From the NCBI GenBank assembly GCA_963281255.1, contig OY725497.1:2294001-2358000 (forward strand): a stretch of 64,000 nt of DNA, read 5' to 3'. The notes below the pieces were generated by a model. It was not told the DNA's origin. It searched no databases and worked only from the letters and a program-made list of their open reading frames with translations. Below, one piece after another: positions 5,733 to 63,493 of this stretch; position 1 is the first letter of the stretch, and each line of letters begins with the position of its first letter. The position numbers were made by a program, and so were the translations under genes. The DNA is from Aphrocallistes beatrix (lineage: Eukaryota; Porifera; Hexactinellida; Sceptrulophora; Aphrocallistidae).

Positions 5733-6868
5733 CAGGGTGATCCAAAAGTTCTGCAACAAATTTTGCTAAAGTATTATACTTACACATGAGAATCTAACAT
5801 CAGATATTTCGTTTTGCTTGAAAATTATAAGGATTATCCTTACTATTAAAACTCGATTATTGTTTGTTTATATATATATATATATATATCTGTAACGAAT
5901 TGATTGAAGAAACTGTCAGGCACAGAAAGCTGATTTTTGGTATGTGGAAGTGTTTTGGCTATGGCTCCAGTAAGTTCTGAGCTCAGATGAAAATGTCGAC
6001 TCATCATGGAATTATGACGTCATTGTAACATTTTTAAAAGTTAAGCAACAGAGTTATTCGAGCATAACTCAGCCATTATAGGAGATAGAAGGCTGAAATT
6101 TTAATAGAATCTGTATACTAACATACCTCACATATGATGCAACTATCATCAAAAAGTGATGACTCATCATTTTATTATGTCGTCATCATTACACACAAAA
6201 ATTTTAAAATTGACAAATTTGGTGATTTTTCATGCGACATAGATTATAACATTAGGACAGACGTATTTAGAGATGTTATCTCCCTTATAATTAATCAATG
6301 GTGACTCCAGGCGACCGAAGGGAGCCACCGGCGGACACAAAGTGTCCGCTAGCCGCGTAGCGCAAGCAAGCGAAGCGTGCTTGTTTTAATTATTTTACAA
6401 TCCAATTGCCTGTATTTCTTAATATATTTGCTAAGGTGGATCATAAATGTTTGTGTGCTTAGAAAAAAGAGAAAAATCAAAAGAAAAAATCTCGAATGCT
6501 TGGTAGATTCTATGATTATATTTAACAATTGTTGTTCTTATTGGCGATTCCCGGTCAATGAACCAAAAGAAATAGTCATATATTAGTATTTTGAATGAAT
6601 AACTGACTATAGGAAGATATAAATATAATTAATAAGGAGAAAAAAGTTTTTTTCGAACTTGACATTTTTGAGATCAGATTATTGGAGTCCCGGGTATATA
6701 AATTTCAAAAATTTGAATAAAAAATATTTTGCGCAATGAATAGTGTTCATTTCTAAACTAGAAGGGTGGTAGATTCCATAGATGCAAACCGATTGAAAGT
6801 TAAACTAAATTATCTTAGTCAAATCAATGAAGTAGAATTTATAGTTGCAGAACTTTTGGATCACCCTG
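5733..6868. mobile_element. D1: TA-flanked MITE (CAGGGTGATCCAAAAGTTCT), containing A1
   Basis: Termini CAGGGTGATCCAAAAGTTCT and AGAACTTTTGGATCACCCTG are inverted and flanked by TA at 5731-5732 and 6869-6870. It sits exactly within the middle of C1 and is itself interrupted by A1. A related element with similar ends is D2 at 18188-18779. No transposase frame is present. Confidence 0.85.
5837..6383 (-). mobile_element. A1: family A Helitron/HINE-like element
   Basis: Starts TCCTTACTATTAAAACTCG after an A, then an AT microsatellite, the conserved CTGTAACGAATTGATTGAAG block, two TGACGTCA-type sites, and a GC-rich hairpin region ending CTTG followed by T. It inserted into D1, so family A moved after D1. 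Confidence 0.8.
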
Positions 6869-7787: not shown

Positions 7788-9085
7788 CGAGGGGGGTAGA
7801 AAAGTTCCCGGAATTTTGCTCGTAGAGATGTATTTAACATGACCCACATTACAAATTCTATGATATAATTGTCACTAACGAGTACGTTTTAAAATGCAAC
7901 ACAGTTAATCATCTCCGGTTTCTCAATTCTAAAATATCACCTCACGATGGCAAATGGCTTCAAAACCACTGATTGAAAATTCTAAGTTTGAGCAGAGAGC
8001 CGTAATCAAGTTCCTGGTTAGCGAAGGCGAGAAGGCTTCTAACATAGTAAAACGGCTGGAAGCTGTTTATGGTAATGCAGCTCTAGGGAAAACCGCCATA
8101 TATGCCTGGGTTGAACGTTTTCGTTCCGGCCGAATAAGCCTTGAAGATGACAAACGGAGCGGTCGTCCAATAACCTCGGTCACTCAGCAAAGGATCAATC
8201 GAGTAGATGAAATGGTTCAAGCAGATCGAAGAATCACTTTAGATCTTTTGAAGGAGTGTACAGGGATATCAAGGTCTAGTATTGTTGAAATTTTGCACGA
8301 AGTCTTAGGGTATAATAGAGTATCTGCTATATGGGTGGCTAAAATGCTTCATAATGATCAGAAACGTGTCCGCTTGGAAATAAGTGAGGATATGCTTCGA
8401 CGGTACAACGCCGAGCAGAAGAAGTTTCTCGATCGAATAATAACTATGGACGGAACTTGGATTTATTTCTATGATCCAGAGACAAAACAGCAGAGTTCTC
8501 AGTGGAAGCACACCAGCAGTCCCTCCCCCGAAGAAGTTTAGAGTTGATAAATCACAACATAAGGTCATGGCGTCCGTATTCTGGGATATCCAAGGAGTTA
8601 TACTAGTAGACTACTTGCCAAAGGGACAAACAATCAACAGTGACTACATTATCAACATTTTAATAGATAAATTACATCCTGCTATTAAAGAAAAACGGCG
8701 TGGAAAGATCAGGAAGGGGATTTTAAGACCACATACTGCACACAAGTCAATCGCAAAGATTCATGAACTAGGCTATGAAATACTACCCCATCTACCATAT
8801 TCACCTGATCTGGCACTTAGCGACTTCGTACTATTCCCTACACTGAAAAAGAATTCGAAAGGAAACCATTATAGCTCTAGATCTGCCATTGCTGTTAATC
8901 AGTGGCTCCGCGGTAACCCTCCAGAATGGTACGAAAGTTCATATGCAGGTTGGGTGGAACGCTGGAAAAAGTGTTTAGCAGTTAAAGGAGATTATGTTGA
9001 AAAATAATAAACAAATCATTAAAATATTAAAGTCCAATTATAAATTTCCTGTAATAATTTCCGGGAACTTTTCTACTCCCCCTCG
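7788..9085 (+). mobile_element. mariner-1: full-length mariner element with TA target duplication
   Basis: Inverted ends CGAGGGGGGTAGAAAAGTTC at the left and, read from the right, CGAGGGGGAGTAGAAAAGTT are flanked by TA at 7786-7787 and 9086-9087. The 1.3-kb length is standard for mariner. Both ends look intact although the transposase is not, so the copy could only be mobilised in trans. Confidence 0.92.
7954..9007 (+). pseudogene. mariner transposase, frameshifted and lacking catalytic D2
   Basis: The reading frame starts MASKPLIENSKFEQ, passes a helix-turn-helix region (AIYAWVERFRSGR ... RSGRP) and reaches the first catalytic block ITMDGTW. At about 8520-8535, after SQWKHTSSPSP, the frame must shift to continue as KKFRVDKSQHKVMASVFWD. 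The usual HDNARPHT block reads GILRPHTA, so the second catalytic Asp is gone. The third, in YSPDLALSDF, is present. Mariner enzymes need a DD34D triad for cut-and-paste, so this copy is inactive. Length across the shift is about 350 residues, normal for the family. Confidence 0.9.
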
Positions 9086-9175
9086 TACTGTCAACTCCGC
9101 TTAATCAGGACACCGGATAATTGGGACAACCGCTTAATTGGGACAAAATATCCAATGATTAAGCGGAGTCACCTG
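9086..9175. mobile_element. B5: shortened pogo-like MITE
   Basis: Carries CAACTCCGCTTAATCAGGAC and the inverted end AAGCGGAGTCACCTG followed by TA. Only about 88 bp of the usual 187 bp remain. It abuts mariner-1 on the left and element M on the right. Confidence 0.75.
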
Positions 9176-9528
9176 TATACTTGAATGGAGTTAATTTCAC
9201 ATTTTTCAAGCTATCAAAAAGCTCTCTTCAGGATTTTGGAGACTTAGTCTAAGAAGTATTCCTGTAAAATTTGAGCAAGATATATTGATGTTTGACCCTG
9301 CCACAATCGACTTGTTTGAACCGGTCGAATTCATAAATCAGTTAATTAAAACCCATAAAATATGGATTACGTAATGATTTAGCATTAAAATTAAATTTCT
9401 TTTTAATTTTTCTTAATAAATTGAGTTTTATCTTCCTTAAAATATACAGAATATGTGTAATATCGAATCACATTGACTCCCAAGTATGTTACAGAAATTA
9501 TATTTGCAAAAAGATCTCCTTACCTAGT

Positions 9529-9668
9529 TATTATTCAATTACAGTGGATATGGAATTGGTGGTATTGTACTACATAATGGAATATGGATTACTTTTGGAA
9601 TGCACAAATAATTATTCAATTATAGTAAATAAGGAATTTGGTGGTAGTTGTATTACCTTTGGAATGCA
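9529..9668. repeat. two-copy tandem duplication, ~70 bp unit, inside element M
   Basis: TTATTCAATTACAGT...GGAATTGGTGGTA...TTTTGGAATGCAC is followed by a diverged second copy (TTATTCAATTATAGT...TTTGGTGGTAG...CTTTGGAATGCAC). It is just inside the left arm of element M. Confidence 0.7.
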
Positions 9669-9707
9669 CGTTCCACTTTTGAAAATTGTAAAATACGAAT
9701 ATATATA

Positions 9708-9895
9708 CAGTCGATTCCGCTTAATAGGGCCACATCGGTCAGAGGTAATTTTGCCCCGATTAAGCGGAGGACCCTATTAACCGAAAATATTTTGTATTAG
9801 CTTCTATGTGTGAGAGCTATTCCGGTCCTGCCAAAAGTGGCCCGATTAAGCGGCTGACCCGATTAAACAGTGGCCCTATTAAGCGGAGTCAACTG
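9708..9895. mobile_element. B1: pogo-like palindromic MITE, 188 bp
   Basis: Ends CAGTCGATTCCGCTTAATAG and CTATTAAGCGGAGTCAACTG are inverted and flanked by TA. Internal CCGATTAAGCGG motifs repeat in both orientations, making nearly the whole element a hairpin. It is near-identical in layout to B2 and B3. Confidence 0.85.
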
Positions 9896-9905
9896 TATAT
9901 ATATA

Positions 9906-10440
9906 TCCTTACTATTAAAACTCGATGATTGTATATATATATATCTGTAACGAATTGATTGAAGAAACTGCCGGGCGCAGAAGGATGATTTTTGGCATGT
10001 GGGAGTCTTTTGGCTATGGCTCCAGTAAGTTCTGAGTTCAGAGCAAAATGTCGACTCATCATGGAATTATGACGTCATTGTCACATTTTTAAAAGTTAAG
10101 CAACACAGTTATTCGGGCATAACTCAGCCATTATAGGAAATAGAAGGCTGAAATTTTAATAGAATCTGTATACTAACATACCTCACATATGATGCGACTT
10201 TCATCAAAAAATGATGACTCATCACTTTGTTATGACGTCATCATTACGCATCAAAAATTTTAAAATTGACAAATTTGGTGATTTTTCGAGTGATATCGAT
10301 TAGCACAGTAGAACAGACATATTTAGAGATGTTATCTCCCTTATAATTAACCAATGTGACTCCAGGCGACCGAAGGGAGCCTCCGGCGGACACAAAGTGT
10401 CCGCCAGCCGCGCAGCGCAAGCAAGCGCGAAGCGCGCTTG
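9906..10440 (-). mobile_element. A2: family A element, near-identical to A12
   Basis: Begins A|TCCTTACTATTAAAACTCG and ends CTTG|T, followed by an AT microsatellite to about 10461. It contains two TGACGTCA palindromes and the GC-rich hairpin. It shares private variants with A12 at 60057-60603, including an extra CG before AGCGCGCTT. Inserted into element M. Confidence 0.82.
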
Positions 10441-11383
10441 TATATATATATATATATATATACTTAGAATTTCTAATTGAAATATAAACTCCGTAACAAT
10501 TGAATATTTTCATAGCATCTAGTACACGTAGTCAAACCATTCATCCCATATTTGTCAAACCGCAGGAGCTACCATTAGGACAGCTTCCAACTCAAAAAGA
10601 AGTGTTCCTGTACTATGAGTTGATTAAGCTCGAAACTACAATAAGTGGGATGAAACCGTCAAAAATTTTTGATACCGCTGAAATTGTAGTTGCAGATGTC
10701 CTGTCAATTTGGAGCCGTGCTACTATTCCGACATTTACGTTTTACACAGTCCAGAAAAAGATCATTGAACTAGTAACTAAGGTCAGGAATCTGATAAAAG
10801 TATACAAGACCCGTTCGAAAACTGAGACATTCAAATTTCAAGTAATACAATTTGATCAACTATTTGACATCTGTTCATGCCCATGTTTCGCGAAATTCTT
10901 TAGTTTGCATGAGACTATTCCACAATCAAAGGAAATATCCACACAATTATGTACATAGATGCAACAATCCAAGGATTCCCATTAACTAGTTCGACATCCA
11001 CTTCTATTTAGATCAGATGGGTCTCCATGTGAAGTTCAACTACTTCGGTAAAACTACAGGACTAGCATCTTTCTCAAGTGAGCTAGGTAAGAAAATTACA
11101 GATTATCTTACAAAAGTCAACATTGTTAAGTATCAACAGATTGACGGGAATGTCGAGCATTTTCCACAAAATATATTAGCCGAACTTAACTGTGACCAGA
11201 AATATCTTCACATGATTTCGCGTGCTGTCCAAGAAGGACGTAAACATTTCGATGAGAAGCTTGCATCGCTTAGTCCGGAAACAGTACATAATACACGTTG
11301 GTTGACAAAGGCGAATCGGATCTTACGATTGTACTTCTCTACTCTGCATCCGTCTGTGGAACTTATAAGTGTAGTTTCTATTA

Positions 11384-11988
11384 TCCTTACTATTAAAACT
11401 CGATTGATGTATATTTATATATATACAAGCGCGCTTCGCTTGCTTGCGCTGCACGGCTGGAGGACACTTTGTGTGCGCCAGAGGCTCCATTCGGTCGCTT
11501 GGGTTCACATTGGTTAATTAGTATAAGGGAGATAACATCTCTAAATATGTCTATCTTAGTGTTATTAAAATCGATATCACTCGAAAAATCACCAAATTTG
11601 TCAATTTTAAAATTTTTATGCGTAATAATGACGTCATAACAGAGTGATGAGTCATCATTTTTTGATGGTAGTTATATCAAATGTGAGATATATTAATATG
11701 CACATTCTATTAAAATTTAAGGATTCTATCACTTAAAATGGCTGAGATATTGTCTAAAAACTGAAATTTCTAATTATAAAAAGGTAACAATGACGTCATA
11801 ATTCCATGATGAGTCGACATTTTCGTCTGAGCTCAGGGCTTCCTGGAGCCATAGCCAAAAAACTCCCACATGCCAAAAATCAGATTTCTGGGCCTGACAG
11901 TTTCCTCAATCAATTCGTTACATATGTATATATATATATATATACTATAGTATATAAATATACATTAATCGAGTTTTAATAGTAAGGA
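11384..11988 (+). mobile_element. A3: family A element with terminal repeat at both ends
   Basis: The most informative copy. The left end TCCTTACTATTAAAACTCG is matched by an inverted copy CGAGTTTTAATAGTAAGGA at the right, each separated from the body by an AT microsatellite. The body begins with the CAAGCGCGCTTCGCTTGC hairpin and ends with the CAATCAATTCGTTACA block. It interrupts the ARW relic. Confidence 0.85.
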
Positions 11989-11994
11989 TATATA

Positions 11995-12181
11995 CAGTAG
12001 AACTCGGTTAGTACGTACTCGGGATAAGACGTGCTTCGGCTTAGTACGTACTCATTTCTCTGAACTAAAATTCATTTATTATATAGATTCCTATGAAATA
12101 TCAACTCGGTTAGTACGTACTTACGGATAGTACGTACTTTTTTCCGCTTCCCGGAGCGTACGTACTAACCGAGTTCTACTG
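11995..12181. mobile_element. L1: pogo-like MITE, 187 bp (not the LINE family)
   Basis: Inverted ends CAGTAGAACTCGGTTAGTAC and GTACTAACCGAGTTCTACTG are flanked by TA. The motif TTAGTACGTACT recurs internally. Same length and layout as family B but different sequence. Confidence 0.85.
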
Positions 12182-12183
12182 TA

Positions 12184-12684
12184 TATATATATCTGTAACG
12201 AATTGATCGAAGAAACTGTCAGGCCCAGAAATCTGATTTTAGCATGTGGGAGTTTTTTAGCTATGGCTGCAGGAAGCTCTGAGCTCAGACGAAAATGTCG
12301 ACTCATCATGGAATTAAGATGTCACTGTCACCTTTTTATAATTAGAAATTTCAGTTTTTCGACTATAACTCAGCCATTTTAGGTGATAGAAGGCCTTGAT
12401 TTTAATAGAATGTGTATATTAATATTCCTCACATACGATGCAACTATCATCAAAAAATGATGACACATCACTATATTATGACGTCATCATTACACATAAA
12501 AATTTTAAAAATTGAAAAATTTGGTGATTTTTCGTGCGATATCGATTATAACAGTAGGACAGGCGTATTTAGGGATGTTATCTCCCTTATAATTAATCAA
12601 TATAACCCCCAGGCGCCCAAAGGGCGCCTCCGGCGGACACAAAGTGTCGCCAGTCGCGCAGCGCAAGCAAGCGAAGCGCGCTTG
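12184..12684 (-). mobile_element. A4: family A element lacking its TCCTTAC terminus
   Basis: Starts in the AT microsatellite, then CTGTAACGAATTGATCGAAG, two TGACGTCA-type sites, GC hairpin and CTTG|T. With A3 and L1 it forms a contiguous insertion between the two coding islands of the ARW relic. Confidence 0.8.
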
Positions 12685-13697
12685 TAATCAATATTTATGC
12701 GCCATTCTGGTTTTATTTCAAATCTCATCCCTACTGTTATCATGGATCAAGTAATCAATTCTGTTCTATCCAACTAATGCGTGACCATCTGAATGTGAAC
12801 AAATTCAAAATTGTCAAAGGAGTTATAGAACATAATGCACATATGGCACATCTTGAAAATATTCTTTTGAGTGTTCTACTGGACGATGATTTGTCTGTTG
12901 GGAAACTTACTCTGCAAATGGTTATTGAAGCTAAGGACATTTATTCATCAGCATCTCAAGAAATAATCAGAACATTTAAACTTCCCCCAATTAATTTTCA
13001 AGCTGACCCATACTGGATTTTAATTGATTGGGAATCAAATGATGCTACAGTTCCACCACTAATTTCAGATATTCCGATAAGTACTCTGGAAAAGGCTGTC
13101 ATTGATGGGAAACTTTTGATTCCAAAGGTAGCTTGTAATACCCAATCATGAGAACGGACTGTGAAGCTAATGACAGAAAAATGTATGCAAACAACATCAT
13201 ATGAAGAGTGTCATGGTGATGTATTATCAACCTTAACATCAAGAAACAAAATGCCACATTTTGACACAAAAAGAGAATTCATACTATAGAATCACGTTAC
13301 CAATTGATTATTATATGCCTCATACATTATAATCAAAATTTTATTCTTAAGGAATAGCCAAAAGTTACCAAATATAATATCCTAAGGCATATTGAAACAT
13401 TTTAATACACGTGAAATACTTTGGGAGTCAATGTGATTCGATATCACACATATTCTGTATATTTTAAGAGAGATAAAACTCAATTTATTAAGAAAAATTC
13501 AAAAAAAGTCTACTTTTAGTGCTAAATCATAAAGTAATCCATATTTTATGGGTCTAGATTAATTCACTGATTTATGAATTCGATCGGTTCAAACAAGTCG
13601 ATTGTGGCAAGGCCAAACATCAATATATCTTGCTCAAATTTTGCAGGAATACATACAGCTTGAAAAAAGTGAAATTCACTCCACCCTACTGTATATA

Positions 13698-31956: not shown

Positions 31957-32500
31957 TCCTTACTATTAAAACTCGAATAATGTGTGTATATATATATATA
32001 TACGTATATATATATACAAGCGCGCTTCGCTTGCTTGCGCTGCGCGGCTGGCGGACACTCCCTTCGGTCGCCTGCGGTCACCATTGATTAATTGTATGAG
32101 AGATGACATCTCTAAACACGTCTGTCCTACTATTATAATCGATATCGCACGAAAAAGCACCGAAATTGTCGAATTTTTAAAATTTTGATGAGTAATGATG
32201 ACGTCATAACAAAGTGATGAGTCATCATTTATGATGATAGTTGCATCATATGTGAGATATGTTAGTATACAGATTCTATTAAAATTTCAGCTTTCTATCT
32301 CCTATAATGGCTGAGTTATGCTCGAATAACTGTATTACTTAACTTTTGAAAATGTGACAATGACGTCACAATTCCATGATGAGTTGACATTTTGCTCTGA
32401 GCTCAGAATTACTGGAGCCATATCCAAAAGACTCCCACATGCCAAAAATCAGCTTCCTCTACTTGGTAGTTTCTTCAATCAATTCGTTACAGAGATATAT
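31957..32500 (+). mobile_element. A7: family A element
   Basis: TCCTTACTATTAAAACTCG, long AT microsatellite, CAAGCGCGCTTCGCTTGC hairpin, body with two TGACGTCA-type sites, CAATCAATTCGTTACAG. The right terminal repeat is absent. Confidence 0.83.
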
Positions 32501-41886: not shown

Positions 41887-43116
41887 TTATAAGATCGATT
41901 TTATTTCCACCTGTGATGCACTAATCATAACAAAGTCATTGAGCATCTTGCCAGTTTTGCTAGGACAAATGCGATGTGCAATTGCTAAAATTATTCCTAG
42001 ATCTTCATCTCGATCAAGCAGTAAATCTTGTTTTAGTTGCGAAAATAAGAGGCCAGGGTCATAGTCGCTTTTTGATTCAAATTCTCTTAAAATATTCTCT
42101 AATGAAAGTAAAGCCAAAGCTTTCTTCATTAACAAACGTAGAAAGTCTCTAACATATAACTCCTTTACGATTGGTATATTTGGAAAAATATCTATGTCAT
42201 TACAGAGATCTTTGATCAACTTAGCACGCCCTCGAACTTTGACAAATGCCTCAGGCGTTTTGACAATCTTCCCAGTGAGATTAGCTTGGAATACCTGTAC
42301 ACAATTATTGTCTAAATCAATCAAAGTGACACGCTGTTTACCAAAACGCAACAACTGTTCTTTAGCCGTTTCTAAGTTAGAATATGCTTGCAATAAGAGA
42401 TATGGACGGAAATCAATGTCCTTACCGGAATAAGTTTGCGTCAGGCATCTATCTTCATCTAGCATAAAAAAAGAAAGAGTTTGTATCATCGAACGAAGAT
42501 GCCTTGCATTTTTTCCACAAACAACTGAATAGGTCCCAGTTTGTAGATGTGAACTCAAGCAAGTCTGTAGGAATCGGTCTAATGAAATTCTCTTAGTAAG
42601 TAGAGACTCATTAATACTAAGATTAACAGAATTATAGCGAATATTAATAAATTCAGGAATTACATTGATTAATATTTTGTCTATATCATATATTTTGTCA
42701 CTAGAAGAATTAGATGAGAAACTATCTCTGAGGATCTTGCAAAATGTACAATGTAAAGGAACATAGTACTGCATATGGGAAATGGGAAATAAGAAGGAGA
42801 GAGAATATACATCTCCAACCATCAAAAAGATAGCAGACAAAGTGATCAATTCGATCCCAGAAAATATATAAAGTTTTAATTCGAAGCTCTCTTCTTGAGT
42901 AAGTCTCCATACCTCTCCATTCAGAATATGATTAGATACATAAACTAAGCAATCCAAATCAATTTGTGAAGTTTGAGAGTCCCATACTTTAATAATCTTA
43001 GGGCCGCAAAGATTATCCCACTTCGCGTACTTTATCATCGCGATAAATTGACATACATCAGCTTCTAGTAGAGACACTATTTCTCTTGATTCTCCCACGT
43101 CTTCATTTGTGGCCAT
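41887..43116 (-). CDS. C9orf72: C9orf72 orthologue (DENN-type protein), single intact exon
   Basis: A 409-codon frame starts at ATG 43114-43116 (GATAATGGCC). The uORF-like extension above it would need a non-ATG start. Matches to the vertebrate protein that I recognise: YAKWDNLCGPKIIKVWD (about 30-46) against its WDN..GP block; LANH-like VSNHILNGE; LSSHLQTGTYSVVCG (187-201); and LGIILAIAHRICPS near the C-terminus. C9orf72 is a divergent DENN protein that forms a complex with SMCR8 and WDR41. It acts in autophagy, lysosome function and small-GTPase regulation. It is shorter than the 481-residue human form, mainly between the two DENN halves. No intron interrupts it, whereas the vertebrate gene has many. 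No disabling change is seen. ATTAAA downstream (41863-41868, complement) is a possible poly(A) signal. Confidence 0.88.
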   Translation of the reverse strand: MATNEDVGESREIVSLLEADVCQFIAMIKYAKWDNLCGPKIIKVWDSQTSQIDLDCLVYVSNHILNGEVWRLTQEESFELKLYIFSGIELITLSAIFLMVGDVYSLSFLFPISHMQYYVPLHCTFCKILRDSFSSNSSSDKIYDIDKILINVIPEFINIRYNSVNLSINESLLTKRISLDRFLQTCLSSHLQTGTYSVVCGKNARHLRSMIQTLSFFMLDEDRCLTQTYSGKDIDFRPYLLLQAYSNLETAKEQLLRFGKQRVTLIDLDNNCVQVFQANLTGKIVKTPEAFVKVRGRAKLIKDLCNDIDIFPNIPIVKELYVRDFLRLLMKKALALLSLENILREFESKSDYDPGLLFSQLKQDLLLDRDEDLGIILAIAHRICPSKTGKMLNDFVMISASQVEIKSIL

Positions 43117-43386
43117 TATCGCTGTGACATACAATATTAGATTGAAAAATGGTGAACAAAAATTATTAAAGGCGAATTTGTGGAATTATTTTCTCAAATA
43201 TTTTCAGAAGCGTAAATACTTTCTCTCTCTAAATATACGAAATTTATCCACAAAAGTTGGGTCCTTTATCAGTAAATAAACATTCCAAAATTAGTTGTTC
43301 TATAATTTCTGAGGATATGCGAAATAAAATAGTTTCGAAGTAAGTTTTTATTAAAATTGATGGATGATTTCAATTTACTCCATTAA

Positions 43387-60056: not shown

Positions 60057-60603
60057 TCCTTACTATTAAAACTCGATGATTGTATATATATATATATATA
60101 TATATATCTGTAACGAATTGATTGAAGAAACTGCCGGGCGCAGAAGGCTGATTTTTGGCATGTGGGAGTCTTTTAGCTATGGCTCCAGTAAGTTCTGAGT
60201 TCAGAGCAAAATGTCGACTCATCATGGAATTATGACGTCATTGTCACATTTTTAAAAGTTAAGCAACACAGTTATTCGGGCATAACTCAGCCATTATAGG
60301 AGATAGAAGGCTGAAATTTTAATAGAATCTGTATACTAACATACCTCACATATGATGCGACTTTCATCAAAAAATGATGACTCATCACTTTGTTATGACG
60401 TCATCATTACGCATCAAAAAATTTAAAATTGACAAATTTGGTGATTTTTCGAGTGATATCGATTAGCACAGTAGAACAGACATATTTAGAGATGTTATCT
60501 CCCTTATAATTAACCAATGTGACTCCAGGCGACCGAAGGGAGCCTCCGGCGGACACAAAGTGTCCGCCAGTCGCGCAGCGCAAGCAAGCGCGAAGCGCGC
60601 TTT
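60057..60603 (-). mobile_element. A12: family A element, near-identical to A2
   Basis: A|TCCTTACTATTAAAACTCG, longer AT microsatellite than A2, the same body variants, and hairpin ending CTTT instead of CTTG. Two TGACGTCA sites. Confidence 0.85.
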
Positions 60604-62193: not shown

Positions 62194-63493
62194 CGAGGGT
62201 CAGTCCAAAAGTTTTGTCGTACACAAAAAATAATTTGCCAATAGTAATCAAATTTTCACAGCTTCTCAAAGTATTCCACTACATTCTATGCAAAGTTGCA
62301 TGCGATGAAACCAATTCTCGAAGCAGTTATGCCATTTTTCCTCTGGCAGGGTCCAGAGGGCCTCTTCGAACGCCAGTCGGGACTCTTCCTGACTGCCAAA
62401 CCTGATTCCGCGGATCTTTTCTTTGATAGTTGGGAATAGGAAAAAGTCGCATGGGGCCAAATCTGGACTGTAGGGGTGATGCGATACCAACTGGACCAAA
62501 TTTTCAGCCAGGAAGTCCAGTGTTTTGGCTGCAGTGTGTGCCGATGCATTATCGTGGTGAAGGAGTAGGCCTCGGATGCCTGCCTTAGGGCGACGAGAAC
62601 TCCAAGCTTCGAAGGCCTTGGGGAGACAATTGTCGATGTACCAATCAGCATTGACTATACGACGATCCTCGAGAGGAACTATGGCTACTGGGCCCGTCTT
62701 ACAGAAAAATGCGGCCACCATCTTCTTCCCGACGCTTCGAGCCCGGCGAACTTTTACAGGGGGATCTTCTCCAGGAAATACCCATATTGAAGATTGCCGC
62801 TTTGTTTCCGGATCGTACTGATAGATCCATGTCTCATCACATGTTAGGATATCATAAACACGTTTGGACCCTCCTCCGTTGAATTTATTGAGCATAAACA
62901 CCACTCTACCCTTGCCTCCATCTGCAATTCTGTGAGGTTATGAGGGATCTAACGGGCCGCAAGCTTACTGACACCGAGATGATCATGTAGGATAGTATTA
63001 ATGGCTGCTTTTCCGATGTCTAGGGTCTCAGCAAACTGCTCATAGGTAATGCGGCTATCCTCTTTGATCAACGACTCCACAGTGGCAATATTCTCTGGAG
63101 TGACGGCGGTTGAAGGCGCCCAGACCTAGGCTCATCTTGTAATGACGTTCTATCCCTCTTGAATTCTAGAAACCAACGCTCCACCGTGCGCTTAGATGGA
63201 GCTTGGTCTTGGAAAGCTTCCAGTAAATTATTGTGACTCTGCTCCACTGATAACTTGCGCATAAAGTCATAGAACATCATGGCTCTAAAATCCCTTCTTT
63301 CTAGCTCCATTGAGTAATTATAAAATCTGTATAGGCGCTTATGGATAAAATAGCATAAGTCAAGAATTATGCCTAATATAGAGCTCAAATTCACAGTAGA
63401 GTCATCAAACATAACCAAGAATATAGTCTATAAATTATTAGACTGTACGCTGAGTAGAACTGGTGTACGACAAAACTTTTGGACTGGCCCTCG
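62194..63493 (-). mobile_element. mariner-2: full-length mariner element
   Basis: Ends CGAGGGTCAGTCCAAAAGTT and AACTTTTGGACTGGCCCTCG, TA at 62192-62193 and 63494-63495; 1.3 kb. A different mariner lineage from mariner-1 by both ends and protein. Confidence 0.94.
62266..63310 (-). pseudogene. mariner transposase with intact DDD residues but broken N-terminal half
   Basis: Starts MELERRDFRAMMFYDFMRKL with the first helix-turn-helix (SKRTVERWFLEFKRDR). A one-base shift near 63110-63115 follows RSGR, an in-frame TAG at 62949-62951 follows KLAAR where Trp is expected, and another shift occurs near 62905-62915. From 62904 the catalytic half is open and complete: LTCDETW, LLHHDNASAHTA and YSPDLAPCDFFLFP, a full DD34D triad. 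About 347 residues overall, normal for mariner. Confidence 0.92.

Follow-up and report, generated by a model that had tools for sequence, protein, structure and literature searches.

A decayed gene of the ARW family enclosed by long terminal inverted repeats (TIRs) is present in a 64,000-nucleotide stretch of the genome of the hexactinellid sponge Aphrocallistes beatrix (contig OY725497.1; C11:2294001-2358000 of the 100.5-Mb, 28-contig assembly G000; hereafter the window), and we consider it very probable that gene and repeats together are the remains of a hAT-like cut-and-paste DNA transposon, closest to hATm, in which the ARW protein was an RNase H-fold DDE (Asp-Asp-Glu) transposase. ARW proteins are annotated in many animals only as uncharacterised. 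A preliminary description of the window, made from its sequence alone, had proposed ARW proteins as the transposases of a TIR element; this is well supported and very probably correct. No gene other than ARW was seen in a TIR element, and ARW is most likely the transposase.

The long inverted arms outside the gene, the decayed gene between them and the five younger insertions were all recognised in that description, and all are real. The element is 4,508 bp from arm to arm with the inserts counted; the five inserts account for 1,900 bp, and 2,608 bp remain after their removal (Table 1). The right arm is matched by the left over 237 columns at 91% identity (blastn of 9170-9490 against the window, E 5e-91), the outer 27 nt of the arms also pair (93% identity, blastn of the left arm against the window), and ~39 bp present in the left arm and in other copies are absent from the right arm. 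When the left arm was dinucleotide-shuffled 100 times as a control, three of the shuffles gave some hit to the right arm at E<=1e-3; chance pairing of the arms is ruled out by the blastn match, the genome-wide copies and the polarity of arms and gene. Between the arms, matches to an ARW family profile built here lie in four frames (10497-10955, 10990-11514, 12606-13148 and 13152-13286), with insert sequence making up the last part of the second frame and the first part of the third, and close relatives of the first half of 10500-10955 occur in other loci of the same family, A. The matches cover profile positions 91-166, 477-603, 596-751 and 754-802. The family profile search did not find positions 167-476 in the window copy; both predicted catalytic aspartates and a C-x-x-H motif belong to this interval. 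The window copy is a dead relic that can no longer make the enzyme, because both predicted aspartates are lost and five later insertions have accumulated.

The suggestion that other copies of the arms would enclose ARW genes was borne out. The right arm, used as a query with only the best candidates scored, gave at least 39 match rows at 21 or more distinct places, window included, and ARW coding sequence is present at 14 of 21 of these (15 of 22 with one extra locus found through ARW), ~1.5 kb being examined on each side of an arm place and more where loci overlapped. At the 15 loci the inner end of the arm faces the gene in all 19 of 19 arm-gene relations. The gap between the gene and its 3' arm is 270-286 bp in seven of 11 cases (23, 167, 202 and 233 bp in the rest); the 5' gap is 217 and 219 bp in two of eight cases and 293-1,130 bp in the other six, several of these gaps being long because there are inserts in them or because the first gene blocks are missing. 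Seven arm places are without ARW: five are a partial arm, one is without an outer end, and one is a 1.0-kb two-armed element. This last element, at C7:3958416-3962362 of G000 (L015, L020), is ~1,026 bp long and has both family-A arms with no ARW sequence, and is likely to be an internally deleted, non-autonomous form.

More divergent ARW lineages carry long inverted ends that differ from those of family A. Family B is a 3.03-kb multicopy family, represented by L091 on C14 (3,034 bp; its TIRs are 297 bp long and 95% identical), by six more full-length copies that are 95-97% identical (on C12, C9, C3, C19, C10 and C11), and by one more copy on C1 that is split by ~18 kb. One locus of family D has TIRs that are 319 and 342 bp long (82% identity), and in family E a right end occurs in four loci and an inverted copy lies 5' in a fifth, so that its arms come from different loci. 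Family G has one candidate terminus, TAGGGTGATC, from a TAGGG scan that also lists chance matches. ARW is thus the internal gene of long-TIR elements in family A and in at least three others (B, D and E), with TIRs of ~268-342 bp across A, B and D. With G counted, an arm or terminus is visible by eye at 30 of 43 ARW-bearing loci (50 merged loci); the expectation that ARW genes elsewhere would also be flanked by arms holds for divergent lineages where their ends are reachable, and at the other 13 loci, including those assigned to families C and F, no arm was seen in the examined stretch. No intact ARW gene was found among the ARW loci examined.

The outer ends of these lineages are alike. The shared form is TAGGGTGGAG in A, TAGGGATGGG in B, TAGGGTGATC in D and TAGGGTGGAT in E (as read, TAGGGTGGAGTGAATTTCAC, TAGGGATGGGGAAAAATGCA, TAGGGTGATCTGAAAACAAT and TAGGGTGGATCGATTTTTCA, respectively). 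TAGGGTG/CACCCTA is the commonest terminal form in families A, D and E, whereas the family-B terminus differs from TAGGGTG, being TAGGGATGG or TAGAGATGG. The TIRs of families B and D contain, ~50 bp inward of the terminus, a motif AAAGTTGC that may serve as an inner binding site; a similar motif recurs 3' of the family-F gene. The split family-B copy (G000 C1:2842073-2863133) has kept its exact 8-bp duplication, ATACACAT, around the outer ends, which suggests that the ~18 kb came in by a large later insertion.

Direct repeats of 8 bp stand directly outside the TAGGG...CCCTA ends. In a sample of 13 two-ended copies (four of family A, one of D and eight of B), the 8-bp flanks are exact in six, all of family B (ATATACAG, GTACTCAA, ACCTACAT, ATGAACAG, CTTCACAG and ATACACAT), and match at seven of eight positions in the window copy (CTGTATAC/CTGTATAT) and in family D (GTGTTTTG/GTGTTTGG). 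The remaining five are without a good 8-bp duplication, with 6/8 matches in one family-A copy and then 4, 4, 2 and 0; two of the failing copies (family A on C9 and family B on C12) have another repeat abutting an end, and the right end of the C10 copy (0/8) was extrapolated 11 bp past the match and its placement may be wrong. When the copies are pooled, 78 of 104 bases are identical at length 8, a figure that none of 20,000 random re-pairings reached (maximum 71), and at lengths 1-7 and 9-14 the identity is within 0.08 of the cross-pair control. Because the flanks agree at length 8 alone, the duplicated target is 8 bp long and the TA is part of the TIR. In the left copies of the eight duplications with seven or eight matches, T is seen by eye at position 2 in seven and A at position 7 in seven; nTnnnnAn is the target preference of hAT elements. 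An empty-site search with five joined flank pairs (common words skipped) gave, among the matches listed, only the family-B copy on C14 as matching across the joint, and this match alone cannot fix the length of the duplication because the site is a TA-rich stretch between two repeats.

These flanks bear on the terminus CAGTAGGGTGG and the 2-bp TA target of the preliminary description, in the reading of a TIR element outside all known superfamilies. TA does flank the inner GGGTGG at many ends, and TA beside the inner GGG is a likeness to Tc1/mariner elements. However, the TA lies inside the inverted repeat with the exact 8-bp repeats outside it in the six copies, the 2-bp identity outside the TIR shows no excess over the control (0.35 vs 0.42), and no Tc1/mariner domain was found in the ARW pieces tested. 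The terminus must likewise be moved: the element starts with TAGGGTGG, its end being TAGGG, other copies share only TAGGGTGG.. at the terminus, and the CAG, not common to the other copies, is the edge of the target duplication CTGTATAY. We therefore regard such a TA-targeting element as extremely improbable; that reading would have placed the element in the wrong superfamily, and is now corrected.

For the proposed structural comparison with RNase H-fold transposases, one family member was translated across its stop codons and modelled. The model has an RNase H-like order of strands and helices, with predicted catalytic residues D200 in strand 1, D272 after strand 4 and E584 in a late helix, and the corresponding columns are conserved (D in 7/7, D in 8/8 and E in 8/10; rows with letters, A1). 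The RNase H-like models have a mean predicted local distance difference test score (pLDDT) of 63-67 and one of two Foldseek searches was without a match at 1e-3, and we treat the RNase H-like core and its D..D..E residues as low-confidence predictions. The top Foldseek matches are the ISCth4 transposase (PDB 6xg8; E 5.8e-4, the only one at 1e-3 and the best match of the full ARW model), the P element transposase (3.8e-3) and Mos1 (0.025); no hAT structure is among the 50 rows, an absence that excludes nothing. ISCth4, a copy-out/paste-in bacterial transposase (PMC7780238), differs in that mode of movement and has 12% identity, and its match to a low-confidence ARW model suggests the class of fold only.

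Searches of Pfam, NCBIfam and, by sequence, PDB gave nothing credible for the ARW pieces; the strongest matches, to Cnd1_N (Pfam, 0.012) and to a FabI model (NCBIfam, 0.0048), each involve a single member and were rejected. The hAT model PF05699 had no match in 23 members (E<=1), four frames (E<=10) or 10 C-terminal pieces (E<=10), all of these being pieces of decayed copies in which a divergent domain could escape detection. The profile does work in this genome and ARW proteins fall outside it, because it gives at least 150 matches (150 of 672 candidates scored), none of those listed overlapping a listed ARW place by eye; on C4, an ARW match is preceded by a PF05699 match ~300 bp upstream. 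ARW relatives were not found in viral contigs, GTDB genomes or phage records, the contig scans reaching close relatives only, and no ARW motif strings were found in print, a weak negative because peptide strings are rarely printed.

At the DNA level the closest known system is hATm. In Zhang et al. 2018 (PMC6004678), hATm is described with ends 5'-TAGGGTG/CACCCTA-3' and 8-9 bp target-site duplications in 28 members, with TIRs that measure 417 and 575 bp in two members (not said there to be defining), with more than 74 Repbase entries, and with PF05699 in hATm-6. The ARW elements are alike in their TAGGGTG/CACCCTA ends, in duplicating 8 bp of the target and in having TIRs that run to hundreds of bp, and by this comparison are hATm-like at the DNA level; to call the element an undescribed transposon type was thus an overstatement, since these features are published for hATm. 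ARW differs from hATm-6, as described in that paper, in being without a Pfam hAT match. The element thus appears to work like hATm, and we would not file the ARW protein as a hATm member because PF05699, the sole testable protein hallmark, is undetected.

Three alternatives to a hAT-like element moved by its own ARW transposase can be framed. First, ARW could be a passenger gene on hAT elements that rely on a different transposase for their movement, and the conventional hAT genes common in this genome mean that a foreign enzyme is at hand. ARW is, however, the sole gene seen in the full-length family-B copy L091 (its three open frames of at least 100 amino acids are all ARW), separate ARW lineages carry their own TIRs, and an RNase H-like core with conserved acidic residues is predicted for the protein, so that we judge a passenger role to be very improbable. 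Second, the element could belong to the P superfamily and not to hAT, as does Galileo, which has long TIRs and duplications that are 7 bp as a rule and sometimes 8 bp, with the target consensus GTANTAC (PMC4168063). The long TIRs and the second Foldseek rank of the P element transposase are likenesses to ARW. Set against them, no P-element model is among the eight Pfam families matched by the 23 ARW members (E<=1), GTANTAC is not seen among the ARW duplications, and the TAGGGTG ends fit hATm; membership of the P superfamily is improbable.

The third alternative accepts ARW elements as DDE transposons and places them in a separate, deep lineage alongside hAT and P rather than on the hAT branch, with the TAGGG end and 8-bp duplication shared through ancestry of the whole group or through convergence. 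It draws on the want of a recognisable PF05699 or other hAT model in ARW, on the Foldseek rows given above (P element second, no hAT structure), and on the cysteine-rich N-terminal rows, in which no Pfam zinc-finger model was matched by those tested. Against it, the combination of TAGGGTG ends, 8-bp duplications and long TIRs is the published hATm signature (PMC6004678), and the hAT and P transposases already form one clade in PMC3985635. A short and divergent dimerisation domain can also escape a profile. Finally, the C-terminal VERxVK motif of ARW stands at what we take to be the position of the ER motif in hAT proteins, and we count this against a separate deep lineage, which we hold to be rather unlikely although well ahead of the other two in probability.

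Returning to the hAT-like element, we infer that the ARW protein itself catalyses movement and that it does so by cut-and-paste. The enzyme would bind the long TIRs with their outer end TAGGG(T/A), cut the element out of the donor site and join it to the target with an 8-bp stagger, and host repair would then leave an 8-bp duplication resembling nTnnnnAn.

Table 1. Features of the ARW element copy in the window (window coordinates).
Feature	Coordinates	Strand	Remarks
Left target-site duplication	9173-9180		CTGTATAC; 7/8 identical to 13689-13696
Left TIR	9181-9483	+	Outer end TTGAATGGAG, a decayed TAGGGTGGAG
Small inverted-repeat element M1, younger insertion	9703-9900		TIRs ~31 bp; 97% and 96% copies elsewhere in window
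~504-bp repeat copy 1, younger insertion	9937-10440	+	
ARW gene, N-terminal part	10500-10955	+	LFDI.SC.C cysteine motif; profile positions 91-166 in second half
ARW gene, middle part	10990-11400	+	(A/S/T)RWLT motif; profile positions 477-603
~504-bp repeat copy 2 (inverted), younger insertion	11421-11929	-	
Small inverted-repeat element M2, younger insertion	11993-12183		Perfect 26-bp TIRs
~504-bp repeat copy 3, younger insertion	12191-12688	+	
ARW gene, C-terminal part	12687-13286	+	In-frame stop at 13149-13151, directly before predicted catalytic glutamate
Right TIR	13421-13688	-	Outer end TAGGGTGGAGTGAATTTCAC read on - strand
Right target-site duplication	13689-13696		CTGTATAT

Other repeats are present in and around the ARW elements. 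The ~504-bp repeat begins near ATCTGTAACGAATTGAT and ends near GCGAAGCGCGCTTG, and full or partial copies in the window include 9937-10440, 60100-60602, 5882-6383 and 32017-32500; the copy at 60100-60602 is 99% identical to that at 9937-10440 inside the ARW element. A ~775-bp inverted-repeat element with TIRs of ~220-228 bp (L091:836-1609, C14) adjoins the end of family-B ARW copies on C14 and C12, and further copies are located near ARW loci on C16 and C9. A broken mariner-type transposase gene lies directly outside the left arm (window 7954-9007), and a second, weakly matched, is at 62269-62937. On the - strand at 41890-43185, a 432-amino acid open frame with a match to a C9orf72-like family (PF15019, E 6.3e-19) is probably a host gene.

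What may be new here is the protein, the DNA anatomy being already published for hATm. Tentatively, ARW could be a large transposase family with no Pfam model that branches off deeply, either next to hAT or at its base, with hATm-like TAGGG ends and 8-bp duplications, a different cysteine-rich N-terminus and a C-terminus unlike the hAT dimerisation domain; we think this possible rather than probable. A family without a Pfam model gains a likely function, together with its ends and target, from the anatomy of copies in one genome, and a set of TIRs and target sites is available for testing. Annotation pipelines could accordingly move ARW genes from 'uncharacterised protein' to 'transposase'.

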